From positions 1 through 25,755 of the IMG/VR virus record IMGVR_UViG_3300045581_000343: a DNA stretch of 25,755 nt; one strand, given 5' to 3'. A program made the position numbers and the translations under genes. The stretch is from a virus. The notes beneath the pieces were generated by a model. It saw nothing but the letters and a program-made list of their open reading frames with translations. It searched no databases and was not told the origin of the DNA. The stretch's first letter is position 1. The number at the start of each line of letters is the position of its first letter. Shown one piece after another: positions 5,593 through 12,413 of the stretch.

Positions 5593-5621
5593 TTGACAAT
5601 TTTCTAAAATTAGATAAAAAT
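5593..5621 (+). promoter_or_regulatory. Candidate promoter for the coat gene
   Basis: A perfect TTGACA -35 box (5593-5598) directly follows the terminator. The best -10 is TAAAAA (5615-5620, 16-base spacing) or AAAAAT (5616-5621, 17-base spacing), both weak. A TTGACA of this quality between a terminator and the coat gene suggests separate coat expression. The leader of roughly 100 bases also contains AGTGA...TCACT, able to form a small hairpin, and ends with a strong AAAGGGG ribosome binding site. Confidence 0.5.
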
Positions 5622-7002: not shown

Positions 7003-7143
7003 ATGCTCAAAAAAGGTTATAGCAAAAAAACCGTAAGCGAGAATATCCGCAAAGAAGTTAAATCTGGCAAGCCAGTTAAGCAAGCTGTTGCAATTGCGCT
7101 TTCAGTAGCTAAAGAAGCAAAAAAACGGAGTGGTAAAAAATGA
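7003..7143 (+). CDS. Small basic phage protein (46 aa), DUF6496-like
   Basis: A 46-codon frame with ATG 7003 preceded by the strong ribosome binding site GGAGAGAG. The sequence MLKKGYSKKTVSENIRKEVK followed by GKPVKQAVAIALSVAKEAKK matches a small Lys-rich family common in phages ('GYSKKTVSKNI..E...GKP.KQAVAIAL..A'), which I associate with DUF6496; its role is unknown to me. The high Lys content suggests nucleic acid contact. Its stop overlaps the next start (ATGA). The position just after the coat gene is usual for structural accessory proteins. Confidence 0.75.
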   Translation: MLKKGYSKKTVSENIRKEVKSGKPVKQAVAIALSVAKEAKKRSGKK

Positions 7144-7409
7144 CAATGCTCTATAAGAAGAACGGCCCTTATCTTGTTGATGGGCGCAAGGTTGATTACA
7201 AAGTATTTGAAGAGTCTGACATTGAGCAGGCTTTGAGCGATGGCTGGCTGTACCATGCCGACGCATGGAAAGATGAGGAAGAAGTAAAAGAAGTTGACAA
7301 GCGTGCCGAATTGGAAGATATGGCAACGAAGTTAGCCATTAAATTTGATGGGCGCACCTCAGATGCAAAACTTCAAAAGTTGATTGAAGATGAGCTGGAC
7401 AAAGCGTGA
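7140..7409 (+). CDS. Small protein with C-terminal HeH/LEM-like helical motif
   Basis: An 89-aa protein. The N-terminal half (LYKKNGPYLVDGRKVDYKVFEE...GWLYHADAW) looks like a small beta/alpha fold. The C-terminal third (KRAELEDMATKLAIKFDGRTSDAKLQKLIEDEL) follows the pattern of short HeH/LEM-type helical motifs common at the ends of phage head-completion proteins. It overlaps both neighbours (ATGA with the gene before, about 20 bases with the gp4-like gene after), placing it firmly in the head-tail joining module. Role inferred from position only. Confidence 0.65.
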   Translation: MTMLYKKNGPYLVDGRKVDYKVFEESDIEQALSDGWLYHADAWKDEEEVKEVDKRAELEDMATKLAIKFDGRTSDAKLQKLIEDELDKA

Positions 7410-8367: not shown

Positions 8368-9768
8368 ATGCAAATACCTATCGTATCTGGCATTTATTCG
8401 GATAACAATGCAGGTTTAAGGACTGGCTACCCATTAAATTACATTGTTATCCCTAAGTCTAGCGGCGTAAGCGCTGAATACTTGCGCCCTGCTTATGGCA
8501 TTAAAAACTTTGCGACAGGGATAGGAAACGATAGGGGCGGGATTAACTGGAATGGCGTGCTTTATCGAGTAAGCGGTAATAGTTTGATTAAAGTTAGCCA
8601 ATCCGGCCAGGTGACTACATTAGGTACAATTGCAGGCAGTTCACCAGTTACTTTTGATTATTCGTTTAATCGTTTGTCAATTTCTGGTGGAGACAATCTT
8701 TACTATTACGATGGTAATTCTCTAACTCAGGTGACCGACACAGATTTAGGGAAAGTCGTTGACCATGCCTATTTATCTGGTTATTTTATCACGACTGATG
8801 GCGTGAATTTGGTTGTTACTGAGCTAAACGACCCTACATCTATCAATCCGTTAAAGTATGGCAGTTCGGAAGCCGACCCAGACCCAGTAGTTAGGGTTTT
8901 CCGGCTGCGTAATGAATTATGCGCGGTAAACAGACACACCATTGAATTATTCGATAACGTTGGAGGTTCGTTTTTCCCGTTCCAGCGTATAGAAGGCGCT
9001 CAAATTCAAAAGGGTGCGCTATCAACTCGGTGCGCTTGCGTGTTTATGGATACCGTTGCTATTGTTGGCGGTGGTCGTAACGAGCAGCCAAGCATTTACC
9101 TATGCCAAAACAGCCAAACCGTTAAAATTGCTGATGACGAGATTGATAAAATCATCAATTCTTATCAGGAACAGGATTTGATTGATTATTGCTACTTAGA
9201 ACAAGTAAACAATGACGGGCATCTGTTTCTTTATGTCCATTTAAAAGACAAAACACTAGTATATGACGCAAACGCATCTCAGGCTTCCGGTAAGCCTGTA
9301 TGGAGCATTTTAACCAGTAGCCTAAGTGGCTTTAGTCAATACAAGATTAGAAGCCTAGTATGGTGCTATAACAAATGGATAGGTGGCGACCCGTCATCTA
9401 ATAAAATTGGTTATTACGTTGAAAACGAATCGCATCATTTTGGCGAAAAGGTAAAACTAGAATTTACTCTTCCATTGATTTACAACGAATCAAAAGGCGC
9501 TTTGTTTTACTCTATGGAGTTGGTAGCTTTGACTGGCAATATATCGCTTGGTGTTGATGCGAAAATATCCACTAGCTACAGCTTGGATGGTAAAAATTGG
9601 AGTCAAGATAGGTTTGTTTCTGCTGGCAAGGTTGGAGATAACAAGCGCATTATGTGGCTACAGTGTGGGCACATGAAAAACTATCGAACCCAAAGATTCA
9701 CGACAAACTCTGATTGCCATGTTTCATTTTTACGGTTAGAGGCTAATCTGGAGCAATTGATGTGCTAA
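8368..9768 (+). CDS. Packaged-DNA stabilisation / tail protein, P22 gp10-like
   Basis: P22 gp10 binds gp4 and continues the closure of the portal channel. The 466-aa product matches its length (472 aa) and its pattern: MQIPIVSGIYSDN, YIVIPKSSGVSAEYLRPAYGI, and beta-propeller-like repeats through the middle (NGVLYRVSGNSLIKVS; FDYSFNRLSISGGDNLYYYDGN; SIYLCQNSQTVKIADDEID). The C-terminal region (SYSLDGKNW, MKNYRTQRFTTNSDCHVSFLRLEA) is also typical. No ribosome binding site is visible upstream of the ATG in the 43-base gap. Its last bases overlap the GTG start of the next gene. Confidence 0.9.
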   Translation: MQIPIVSGIYSDNNAGLRTGYPLNYIVIPKSSGVSAEYLRPAYGIKNFATGIGNDRGGINWNGVLYRVSGNSLIKVSQSGQVTTLGTIAGSSPVTFDYSFNRLSISGGDNLYYYDGNSLTQVTDTDLGKVVDHAYLSGYFITTDGVNLVVTELNDPTSINPLKYGSSEADPDPVVRVFRLRNELCAVNRHTIELFDNVGGSFFPFQRIEGAQIQKGALSTRCACVFMDTVAIVGGGRNEQPSIYLCQNSQTVKIADDEIDKIINSYQEQDLIDYCYLEQVNNDGHLFLYVHLKDKTLVYDANASQASGKPVWSILTSSLSGFSQYKIRSLVWCYNKWIGGDPSSNKIGYYVENESHHFGEKVKLEFTLPLIYNESKGALFYSMELVALTGNISLGVDAKISTSYSLDGKNWSQDRFVSAGKVGDNKRIMWLQCGHMKNYRTQRFTTNSDCHVSFLRLEANLEQLMC

Positions 9769-10502
9769 AAGCCCCAAACCGTGACGTTCTGCAAAAGATA
9801 TTTGGCGACCATGAGACTATCAAAAAGATAGAGCAACTCTTTACCGTCGCGCAAATATCATCTGATGATATTTCAAATTTATACGCATTAGCGGAAGAGT
9901 TAGATATATCATCGTCACTTGCAAGCGCAAACGCAAATAAATCTGCGAGTATTTTGCAAGATTTAATCAATATTATTGCATCGCAAAATAAAGCAAAGCA
10001 ACAGTCTAATCCTGATATATACATTCCACCAGAGCGACCAAAGAAACGCACTCGTTATGGGGTATTTCACGACACAACCACGCAAAGTGCGGCAGCGGTT
10101 AATACTGCCTATGCATTTACTTTCAACTCCACAGACCAAACAAAAGGCGTTTATATTGGCTCACCGACTAGCCGTGTATATGTGGATGAAATTGGGTTGT
10201 ATAACTTTCAATTTTCGTGCCAGCTAGACAAGGCTTCGGCATCTGCCGCTAATATTTGGATATGGGCTAGAGTAAATGGGGCTGATGTTGCAGATACTGC
10301 AAGTCAAATCCGTGTTAAGGATAACAACTCGGAATTAGTAGCAGCATGGAATTTTGTGCTAAAAATGAACGCAGGTGACTATTTTGAGTTAATGTGGGAA
10401 GTGGATGACACGTCGATACAAATTCCGTCGTTTACTGCTACAGCCGTTCATCCTGCAACCCCGTCGATTATCTTAACCGTTACCAATAACATAGGTGATT
10501 AA
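9762..10502 (+). CDS. Candidate tail needle or plug with C-terminal knob-like beta domain
   Basis: The GTG start at 9762 lies inside the end of the gp10-like gene with GGAG upstream. The 246-aa product has an N-terminal helical segment, residues about 1-85 (NRDVLQKIFGDHETIKKIEQLF, then ISSDDISNLYALAEEL and a Ser/Ala-rich helix), a Pro/Lys linker (PPERPKKRTR), and residues 98-246 that look like a C1q/TNF-type jelly roll (YIGSPTSRVYVDEIGLYNFQFSC, WIWARVNGADVADT, DYFELMWEVDD). Position after gene 10 matches P22 gene 26, the trimeric tail needle, and some relatives such as Sf6 carry a TNF-like knob at the needle tip. The needle call is inference; a fibre-like decoration protein is the main alternative. 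Confidence 0.55.
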   Translation: MLKAPNRDVLQKIFGDHETIKKIEQLFTVAQISSDDISNLYALAEELDISSSLASANANKSASILQDLINIIASQNKAKQQSNPDIYIPPERPKKRTRYGVFHDTTTQSAAAVNTAYAFTFNSTDQTKGVYIGSPTSRVYVDEIGLYNFQFSCQLDKASASAANIWIWARVNGADVADTASQIRVKDNNSELVAAWNFVLKMNAGDYFELMWEVDDTSIQIPSFTATAVHPATPSIILTVTNNIGD

Positions 10503-10835
10503 ATGATTACTCGTAAATCAATCGTTCCCAGTAAGTACCTAGAGAATTCACTTACTACACAATATACAGTAAGCAATGGCACGCTTATTATTGAAAGCCC
10601 AACTTTTACCAATATCACAGCGTCTAATGTAACGTTTGATGTTTATATTGTCCCGTCAGGTGGTAGCGCAGGCGATTCTAACCGAGTAATTAAAAGTAAA
10701 TCTGTAGCGCCTAGCGAATCATACGAGGCTACCGCGTTATTTGGGAAAATCCTAACAAGCGGTCAGTTTATTGCTACTAATTGCAGCGCATCCAATGCCA
10801 TTGTGTGCAATATCGGCGGTAGCGAGATTACTTGA
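10503..10835 (+). CDS. Small beta-rich virion-type protein (110 aa)
   Basis: Begins directly after the stop of the needle candidate. The sequence (QYTVSNGTLIIESPTFTNITASNVTFDVYIVPSGG...ATALFGKILTSGQFIATNC) alternates like a single beta-sandwich domain, of a type often found beside phage tail or fibre genes. No enzyme motif, signal peptide or membrane segment. Its TGA stop is part of a TTGACA promoter-like box for the next gene. Function unknown; likely structural. Confidence 0.6.
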   Translation: MITRKSIVPSKYLENSLTTQYTVSNGTLIIESPTFTNITASNVTFDVYIVPSGGSAGDSNRVIKSKSVAPSESYEATALFGKILTSGQFIATNCSASNAIVCNIGGSEIT

Positions 10836-10860
10836 CATTTTTTATTAAATGTATGAAAAT
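10832..10860 (+). promoter_or_regulatory. Candidate promoter for the cupin-hydroxylase pair
   Basis: A perfect TTGACA (10832-10837) with GAAAAT (10855-10860, 4 of 6 matches) at 17-base spacing. It has the same form as the candidate coat promoter (perfect -35, A-rich weak -10). The inverted repeat CAGCAG (10865-10870)/CTGCTG (10886-10891) lies in the would-be leader, and an AAGGGG ribosome binding site precedes the cupin start. Confidence 0.4.
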
Positions 10861-10910
10861 TTTACAGCAGAGTTTTTTAGGCTACCTGCTGCCAAAATTA
10901 AGGGGCCTAA

Positions 10911-11240
10911 ATGACTTTACATTATTTTGGTGATAATGAAATTGCAAAAGAAATAAAATTAAGTGCTGGCGATGTTGTTGTCCAGCATAAGCACACTTAT
11001 TCCCATATTTCAATCTTGGCTTCAGGTACTGTCAAGCTTTCTGACGGTGAAGACAATCAAGTTTTAACTGGCCCATGTGCGCTAGTTATTCAAAAAGAAA
11101 AATATCATTCAATCGCGGCCTTGACTGATGCAGTATGGTACTGCATACACGGCTGCGACGGTCAGAATTATTCTGATGATGTTGTTATTTCTAAAAACTC
11201 ATCTGCGGAAGAGTGCAAACAAATAGGCATGGCTTTATGA
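10911..11240 (+). CDS. Small cupin-fold protein
   Basis: A 109-aa single-domain cupin. Residues 20-39 fit cupin motif 1, G-x5-H-x-H-x3-(E)-x6-G: Gly20, His26, His28, His32 in the place of the usual Glu, and Gly39. Motif 2 is represented by Gly54 and His66. Four His ligands suggest a bound metal, but no specific substrate can be named. The start has an AAGGGG ribosome binding site after a 75-base gap holding a promoter-like sequence. The stop overlaps the start of the hydroxylase gene by ATGA, so the two are translationally coupled and probably functionally linked. Not part of the P22 virion gene set. Confidence 0.75.
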   Translation: MTLHYFGDNEIAKEIKLSAGDVVVQHKHTYSHISILASGTVKLSDGEDNQVLTGPCALVIQKEKYHSIAALTDAVWYCIHGCDGQNYSDDVVISKNSSAEECKQIGMAL

Positions 11241-11788
11241 AAAACTTTATTAAAATCGCCTCCGGTGTTGATGTAACTAATCTTAAAATTGCGCTGCATC
11301 ATAATCCGCAATTATGGGATGCCTGCACAATTAGAAAAGACAATCCAGCGTCACCACACAAAGAAATGCAGGACATTTGGGTGCGTTATCGTGACCCTAA
11401 AGAATTAAACGAACAAAATGTTGGAGATATTCACTTTCCTGTATGGCTGGATGCTTATTATAAATTGCCGCAATTGCGCTCTATTATTTTTGCTCTAATG
11501 GCTAAGTTAGAGGCCGAGCATTTAGGCGCTGTGTTAATCACTAAAATCCCGCCCGGTGGAAAAATCCACCCCCATGCCGACGGTGGATGGCACGCAGATT
11601 TTTATAATACCAAAGTTTACATCCCAATTCAAACCAATGATGGCGTAGTGAATCGAGTAGAAGATGAATACGTTGTCATGAAAGAGGGCGAAGTTTGGTA
11701 TTGGGACAACTCAAAAGAACATGATGTGGTTAATAACGGTAAAGAGGACAGAATAACTCTAATCGTTTGTTTAAGGACGGGAGGTTAA
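11237..11788 (+). CDS. 2-oxoglutarate/Fe(II) oxygenase, aspartyl/asparaginyl beta-hydroxylase-like
   Basis: A 183-aa enzyme with the HxD...H iron site: His113 and Asp115 in GGKIHPHADGGWH and His162 in SKEHDVVNNG, followed by Arg172 in KEDRITLIVCLR, suitable for binding 2-oxoglutarate. The spacing and the IPPGGKIHPHAD and GEVWYWDNSKEH segments match the aspartyl/asparaginyl beta-hydroxylase (Asp_Arg_Hydrox) pattern, which hydroxylates protein side chains. ATG 11237 overlaps the cupin stop; an in-frame GTG at 11213 is possible. It sits between tail and ejection-protein genes, so a virion protein could be a substrate, but the substrate is unknown. Confidence 0.82.
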   Translation: MKNFIKIASGVDVTNLKIALHHNPQLWDACTIRKDNPASPHKEMQDIWVRYRDPKELNEQNVGDIHFPVWLDAYYKLPQLRSIIFALMAKLEAEHLGAVLITKIPPGGKIHPHADGGWHADFYNTKVYIPIQTNDGVVNRVEDEYVVMKEGEVWYWDNSKEHDVVNNGKEDRITLIVCLRTGG

Positions 11789-11789
11789 T

Positions 11790-12413
11790 ATGCCTTGGGG
11801 TTTTGCAGCGGCGGCTGTTGCAACTGTTGGTTCTGCTTATATGCAATCTGAAGCAGCAGAGGATGCGGCAAACGCTCAAATGCGTGCCGGAGAAAACGCA
11901 CAGGAAACACGGATGCGTATGTTTAATTTGATGAGGTCAGATTTAAAGCCATACCGAGAGATGGGCGAAAAAGCTTTAACCTCTTTAGGTGATTTAATGG
12001 GTTTAGGTGGTCAAGACGCGCAAGCTGCATTTTTAGCTGACATTCAAAAATCACCAGAGTTTACTTCAATGCTTCAACAAGGCGAAAATGCAATGCTGCA
12101 AAACGCATCTGCAACAGGCGGTCTTCGTGGTGGAAATTTACAGGGCGCTTTGGCTCAGTTTCGTCCTGCTTTACTTTCTCAGCAAATTCAAACGCAATAC
12201 AGCCGATTAGGTGGGTTAGCTAATATTGGTCAAAGTTCGTCAGCCCAAACTGGAGCCGCTGGAATCCAAACGGGGCAAGGAATTGCTAGCGACTGGGGAA
12301 CTATCGGTGCGGCTCAAGCCGGGGGTTATCTTGGAGAGGCTAAGGCGTGGAGCAAAGGATTGAGCGACTTATCAAAGATAGGCGGGATGTACTTTGGTGG
12401 GGCATCTGGTTAA
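11790..12413 (+). CDS. Ejection (DNA transfer) protein, P22 gp7-like
   Basis: One of three internal proteins ejected with the DNA to form a conduit across the envelope. The 207-aa product starts with a small hydrophobic Ala/Gly segment (WGFAAAAVATVGSAYM), then a helical region (QSEAAEDAANAQMRAGENAQE), then the recurrent phage pattern DLKPYREMGEKALTSLGDLMGLGGQ and GGLRGGNLQGALAQFRPALL, ending in a Gly/Ala/Ser-rich region. This pattern is common to gp7-type DNA transfer proteins. The order gp7-gp20-gp16-like matches P22. It begins one base after the hydroxylase stop. Confidence 0.8.
   Translation: MPWGFAAAAVATVGSAYMQSEAAEDAANAQMRAGENAQETRMRMFNLMRSDLKPYREMGEKALTSLGDLMGLGGQDAQAAFLADIQKSPEFTSMLQQGENAMLQNASATGGLRGGNLQGALAQFRPALLSQQIQTQYSRLGGLANIGQSSSAQTGAAGIQTGQGIASDWGTIGAAQAGGYLGEAKAWSKGLSDLSKIGGMYFGGASG

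Follow-up and report, generated by a model that had tools for sequence, protein, structure and literature searches.

Why does a phage with a P22-type late operon carry two enzyme-like genes, a cupin and a 2OG/Fe(II) hydroxylase, directly before an ejection-protein gene, and on what might the two products act? The question arises from an IMG/VR virus record of 25,755 bases, here called the window, meaning the whole stretch of DNA that was analysed. Its late operon encodes a terminase, a P22 portal, a P22 coat protein, a tail factor gp4, a gp10-like stabiliser, a gp7-like ejection protein and a tailspike that carries a P22-type head-binding domain. An 89-aa protein with no Pfam match is encoded at 7140-7409, between the coat and gp4-like genes. 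The sequence-only reading had singled out two enzyme-like genes with recognisable metal residues between the tail and ejection genes, and both are indeed present, directly before the gp7-like gene that starts at 11790. This position is referred to below as the slot, and the features around it are the following.

9762 to 10502, plus strand: tail or needle-candidate protein of 246 aa, a weak match to phrog_746 minor tail protein (E 2e-4), syntenic in L141-L162
10503 to 10835, plus strand: protein of 110 aa upstream of the slot, conserved in relatives whose slots are empty or otherwise filled
10832 to 10860, plus strand: promoter-like TTGACA-17-GAAAAT, a weak 10/12 match
10911 to 11240, plus strand: cupin of 109 aa, an open reading frame with a Cupin_2 match (E 0.0012), a PDB cupin profile match and its histidines kept in 72/72
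11237 to 11240, plus strand: ATGA stop/start overlap of 4 nt between cupin and hydroxylase, read from the sequence
11237 to 11788, plus strand: 2OG/Fe(II) oxygenase of the Asp_Arg_Hydrox family, 183 aa (PF05118, E 5.3e-15; triad in 87/87, R172 in 86/87)
11790 to 12413, plus strand: P22 gp7-like DNA ejection protein (PF25688, E 3.1e-9; phrog_598, E 3.6e-39)

The two genes are tightly coupled by the ATGA overlap. The product of the first scores 19 bits against PF07883 (Cupin_2), for which the curated cut-off is 27.2, and profile matching to PDB cupins gives a best E of 4.3e-6. In the alignment of 72 relatives H26, H28, H32 and H66 are invariant, together with G39. Set beside the cupin superfamily motif HxH(x)3-4E(x)6G, the HxH, G39 and the second-motif H66 are all retained, with Glu replaced by His32, and a four-histidine metal site is predicted from these residues. 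In the structural model of a naturally fused homologue (L112), the cupin domain forms a beta-barrel.

The hydroxylase reaches 56 bits against PF05118, where the cut-off is 22.6; the open reading frame listing also offers a longer alternative with a GTG start at 11213. The HxD...H triad (H113/D115/H162) is found in all 87 aligned hydroxylases, as are N166, G97 and G151, and the 2OG-binding R172 is missing from a single sequence. The metal residues picked out by the sequence-only reading therefore hold up in the comparison with relatives that it had proposed. Members of the PF05118 family (AspH, L-proline cis-4-hydroxylase, LpxO) share the fold, the HxD...H metal site and the 2OG-binding Arg with the window enzyme, but the phage hydroxylase is short and has a cupin partner. 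Human AspH has a two-histidine iron site and no carboxylate (Asp) metal ligand. The phage enzyme departs from this AspH-type site, as D115 is present in every one of the 87 sequences. A match to phrog_2297, labelled 'DNA endonuclease', was set aside, the label being judged misleading.

The best PDB sequence match of the hydroxylase is not AspH but L-proline cis-4-hydroxylase (4p7w, E 9.6e-8), and its fold matches include the small-molecule hydroxylases 7v4f and 7v4m. As these nearest solved relatives act on small molecules, a metabolic role as an auxiliary metabolic gene (AMG) deserves consideration. In that case a free amino acid or metabolite would be the substrate of the hydroxylase and its product that of the cupin, with the effect, during infection, of altering the metabolism of the host or of yielding a protective compound. 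Small-molecule substrates are common among cupin enzymes, and several 2OG oxygenases of marine phages have been classed as auxiliary metabolic genes (PMC11288001, PMC3037559). The distribution and genomic position of the pair, described below, bear on this alternative.

Paired occurrence in other phages, which the sequence-only reading had suggested looking for, was examined with a hydroxylase profile independent of the cupin. This profile was scanned against 2.9 million viral contigs and the best 80 of 141 relatives were kept; a cupin profile was then searched beside the hydroxylases, most of which directly adjoin a cupin. For the final set all loci were combined, duplicates of a near-identical twin of the window were removed, and lineages were defined at 80% identity. 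A cupin accompanies the hydroxylase in 64 of the 88 hydroxylase loci (54 hydroxylase-cupin, 9 cupin-hydroxylase and 1 fusion) and is missing from 24. Counted by lineage, 31 of 51 have a cupin directly beside the hydroxylase, 23 of them hydroxylase-first, 7 cupin-first and 1 fused. This adjacency bears out the expected pairing and rules out coincidence.

In the window the cupin comes first, and the same order is seen in L007, a phage distinct from it (43% cupin and 37% hydroxylase identity); on the hydroxylase tree the cupin-first order changes at least three times on well-supported branches. In the natural fusion L112, Cupin_2 (36.5 bits) and PF05118 (35.6 bits) both lie above their curated cut-offs, and the AlphaFold model (pTM 0.59) contains two good domains with a disordered linker at residues 190-202, their docking not being confident; the fusion shows that one chain can carry both activities. 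The cupin–hydroxylase pair is a genuine conserved module, recurring in dozens of short-tailed phages that are only distantly related. That the genes adjoin in the majority of lineages, whichever comes first, and are fused in one makes it very likely that the two proteins act in one process, although being neighbours is not in itself proof that they share a substrate.

At the sensitivity used, the hydroxylase was found in only 3 of 50,697 phage records and the cupin in 34, so that the pair is known mainly from uncultured phages and prophages. A general bacterial operon is not supported: a scan of 385 genomes from a single bacterial class found the pair in one prophage, and no cupin lay beside the chromosomal hydroxylases. 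That prophage (L246) is an independent copy comprising hydroxylase, cupin and gp7-like gene. About 10 of the 385 genomes contain a chromosomal PF05118-type family related to the phage hydroxylases (L248-L257), without a cupin, and several of these loci share the same convergent neighbour gene. Aspartyl/asparaginyl hydroxylases with the same annotation as the window gene have been reported in Limnohabitans phage DC33 and in pelagimyophages; the accessible text of these reports presents them as single genes and describes no cupin pairing, partner exchange or link to an ejection slot (PMC12195039, PMC7029224). A description of the cupin–hydroxylase pair was not found in a literature search covering mainly open-access papers.

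Of the lineages without a neighbouring cupin, 13 have a sulfotransferase-fold protein as partner, 3 have a GNAT and 4 lack a recognised partner; among the last, L091 starts near a contig end and the frame of L134 is broken. The sulfotransferase-fold protein, marked by a GLPRSRTAWL loop, lies upstream of the hydroxylase in 14 hydroxylase-only loci as counted by eye and in 17 by profile search. The best match of its predicted structure (pLDDT 84) is tyrosylprotein sulfotransferase (E 6e-4, prob 1.00), an assignment that rests on fold, Pfam seeing a sulfotransferase only weakly. Cupin and sulfotransferase occur together in none of the 88 loci. This exclusion has a Fisher p of 3e-8 on representatives with kinship ignored, while kinship-independent pairs show a trend of 3.5 to 0 (median p 0.125) and are too few for significance. 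The hydroxylase tree has at least four changes of the sulfotransferase label on well-supported branches. The place of the cupin can thus be taken by a GNAT or a sulfotransferase-fold protein, and the hydroxylase is the centre of the cassette, an architecture that is directly visible in the gene order.

Other arrangements also occur. L082 encodes two PF05118-type proteins (130-600 and 1387-1944) with a sulfotransferase-fold protein in between, and L084 looks alike. Slot cupins with a C-terminal SET-like domain are found in L158 (2536-3390), L163 (2532-3374), L139 (4920-5678) and L137 (4896-5768), PF00856 (SET) lying above its cut-off in L139 and L163; such a fused protein is possibly a phage protein methyltransferase situated in the ejection slot. 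Two different tandem cupins fill the slot, with no hydroxylase, in L018 (5699-6288), L021 (2685-3274) and L025 (5678-6288). Cupin-only loci account for 22 of 110.

Could the cupin instead be a structural part of the virion? It would then serve as a short tail fibre or adhesin, and the hydroxylase would modify the cupin itself or a neighbouring tail protein. Residues 4-87 of the window cupin match phrog_12032 (short tail fibre / adhesin; E 4.2e-10), and the protein also matches phrog_24280, which is likewise labelled 'tail'. Homologous slot cupins before the ejection gene in the isolate phages VPMS1, BA3 and VvAW1 (phrog_12032/24280; PHA00672) are annotated 'short tail fiber adhesin', and a cupin-domain 'short tail fiber' has been reported in phage phiAP1 without experimental validation (PMC8703784). 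The slot cupins of the hydroxylase-free isolates VPMS1, BA3, Amaethon and P26218 no longer have all the metal histidines, as would be expected of a scaffold, and part of the cupin family may therefore work without catalysis. However, no experiment was found behind the labels of the annotated homologues, which appear to be transfers, and the cupins of the pair keep all four metal ligands. Interchange with a sulfotransferase-fold protein would also be odd for a tail fibre, and a structural cupin is, of all the explanations weighed here, the one we find hardest to credit.

The position of the cassette is constant. In nearly all cassettes an ejection-type gene comes directly next, at a median gap of 1.5 nt, and the remaining cupin loci, hydroxylase-free and tandem-cupin loci included, occupy the same position wherever the contig extends that far. 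For 20 of 47 downstream proteins the match is phrog_598 DNA ejection, and for others it is phrog_21132, 4287, 418 or 805, which are ejection, internal-virion or tape-measure-type families. Among the window's closest relatives, as judged by the gp7-like protein, the upstream genes are mostly shared and the slot content varies: L140 has cupin and hydroxylase, L143 a cupin alone, and L158 and L163 a cupin-SET fusion. The slot is empty in, for example, L145-L147 and L154, the flanking genes of L154 being ~10 nt apart. In L141 (3047-3508), L142 (1822-2283) and L144 (3035-3496) the occupant is a protein of ~152 aa (phrog_21390) that is not related to the pair. As the slot is empty or otherwise filled in the closest relatives, it shows the behaviour of a moron slot.

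Contrary to the sequence-only reading, which held that P22 has no gene here, the corresponding slot is occupied in both P22, with gene 14 between genes 26 and 7, and T7, with gene 13 before gene 14. P22 gene 14 (DUF2824, PF11039), a 'virion stability factor', resembles the cassette in its slot but has no sequence match to the cupin or hydroxylase; PF11039 has no match in the slot genes of the window, and a scan with P22 gp14 returned near-identical copies only. T7 gene 13 (phrog_308, PF11090) likewise follows the tail nozzle genes, precedes the first gene for an internal virion protein and encodes an enzyme-like fold, but its fold and chemistry are unrelated to those of the pair, and the window proteins match neither PF11090 nor phrog_308. 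A role in virion morphogenesis has been suggested for the T7 gp13 family, and a GNAT in the corresponding place in cobaviruses has been noted as a possible T7 gp13 counterpart (PMC6775973). In L067 a T7-gp13-family gene (phrog_308, E 2.6e-30) sits beside the cassette, co-existing with the pair and not replacing it.

The sequence-only reading also proposed that the pair is a moron transcribed separately. The moron part agrees with the empty and variously filled slots of close relatives; separate transcription is weakly supported. The TTGACA at 10832-10837 does overlap the stop codon of the preceding gene, and the 75-nt gap 5' of the cupin contains most of the TTGACA-17-GAAAAT box. Only two sites in the window match at 10/12 or better, starting at 5593 and 10832, and both reach intergenic sequence, of which the late operon has 564 nt. 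Random sequence of equal dinucleotide make-up would be expected to contain ~9 such sites, so that a 10/12 score is not significant by itself. The other box, TTGACA-17-AAAAAT at 5593-5621, lies in a 179-nt gap 5' of the coat protein gene. Most other cassettes have no comparable gap, and no promoter site is evident in the gap of L007. The position of the box weakly suggests that the pair may have a promoter of its own. Inverted repeats noted by eye at the junction before the slot, both in the window (10860-10895, CAGCAG...CTGCTG) and in the empty-slot relative L147 (3377-3402, CCGCTG...CAGCGG), are a possible candidate RNA element.

The box and the moron-like presence and absence among close relatives would also suit products that act outside the virion. 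On this view the slot simply tolerates insertions and perhaps has a promoter of its own, and both proteins would be assembly helpers or moron products whose target is a protein, a lipid or a surface sugar of the host, for instance in superinfection exclusion. The lipid hydroxylases LpxO and OlsC fall in the same broad fold class as the window enzyme, but their matches to it are weak and far below cut-off. Most other cassettes, moreover, have neither a gap nor a promoter of their own, a merely tolerant site does not explain a recurring hydroxylase with mutually exclusive partners, and a search of a defence library returned no match to known defence proteins. A host target thus seems rather improbable.

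The reading we prefer, to which we assign a probability of about 0.4, is that the two genes represent one version of a mobile late cassette for protein modification, built around the hydroxylase, with an interchangeable partner and with an ejection or tail protein as the most likely target; short-tailed phages would keep it between the tail genes and the first gene for an ejection (internal virion) protein. We infer a virion-protein target because hydroxylases, sulfotransferases, GNATs and SET domains, all of which have protein-modifying members, recur in one late slot beside ejection proteins. The cassette genes would be co-expressed late with the virion genes, and one of the proteins being produced then, most probably an ejection or tail protein, would receive a side-chain hydroxyl group from the hydroxylase. 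The partner, whether cupin, sulfotransferase or GNAT, may act on, guide or further change the target of the hydroxylase. The likely benefit would lie in virion assembly, virion stability or delivery of the ejection proteins, as for P22 gene 14 and T7 gene 13 from the same slot.

The preferences of the solved relatives, which take free proline (4p7w) or a nucleoside-antibiotic intermediate (7v4f), count by homology against such a target and for the metabolic role raised above. A virion target accords better with the strict position beside an ejection gene, kept in phages and hosts of very different kinds, and with the replacement of the cupin by sulfotransferase, GNAT and SET-type genes; late-gene expression would also be poor timing for metabolic support. 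A metabolic role therefore appears unlikely. Modification of a virion protein by the cassette remains our preferred reading, and within it the sequence-only reading, accurate in nearly every observed detail, is partly supported in its interpretation: Asp/Asn hydroxylation of a virion protein is plausible, both the reaction and the residue type being putative. More tentatively, the cassette might constitute an undescribed virion-modification system, in which a mark set by the hydroxylase on an ejection or tail protein would be completed by an interchangeable partner, the whole being swapped between phages as a module in the pre-ejection slot.

The annotation of slot cupins as tail-fibre adhesins, which is spreading and behind which no tests were found, would be corrected by the preferred reading. 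If the preferred reading is true, the slot genes whose role has long been unclear, such as P22 gene 14 and T7 gene 13, would mark one position for enzymes that modify or assist the virion, and many P22- and T7-like phages would chemically modify their own genome-delivery proteins.
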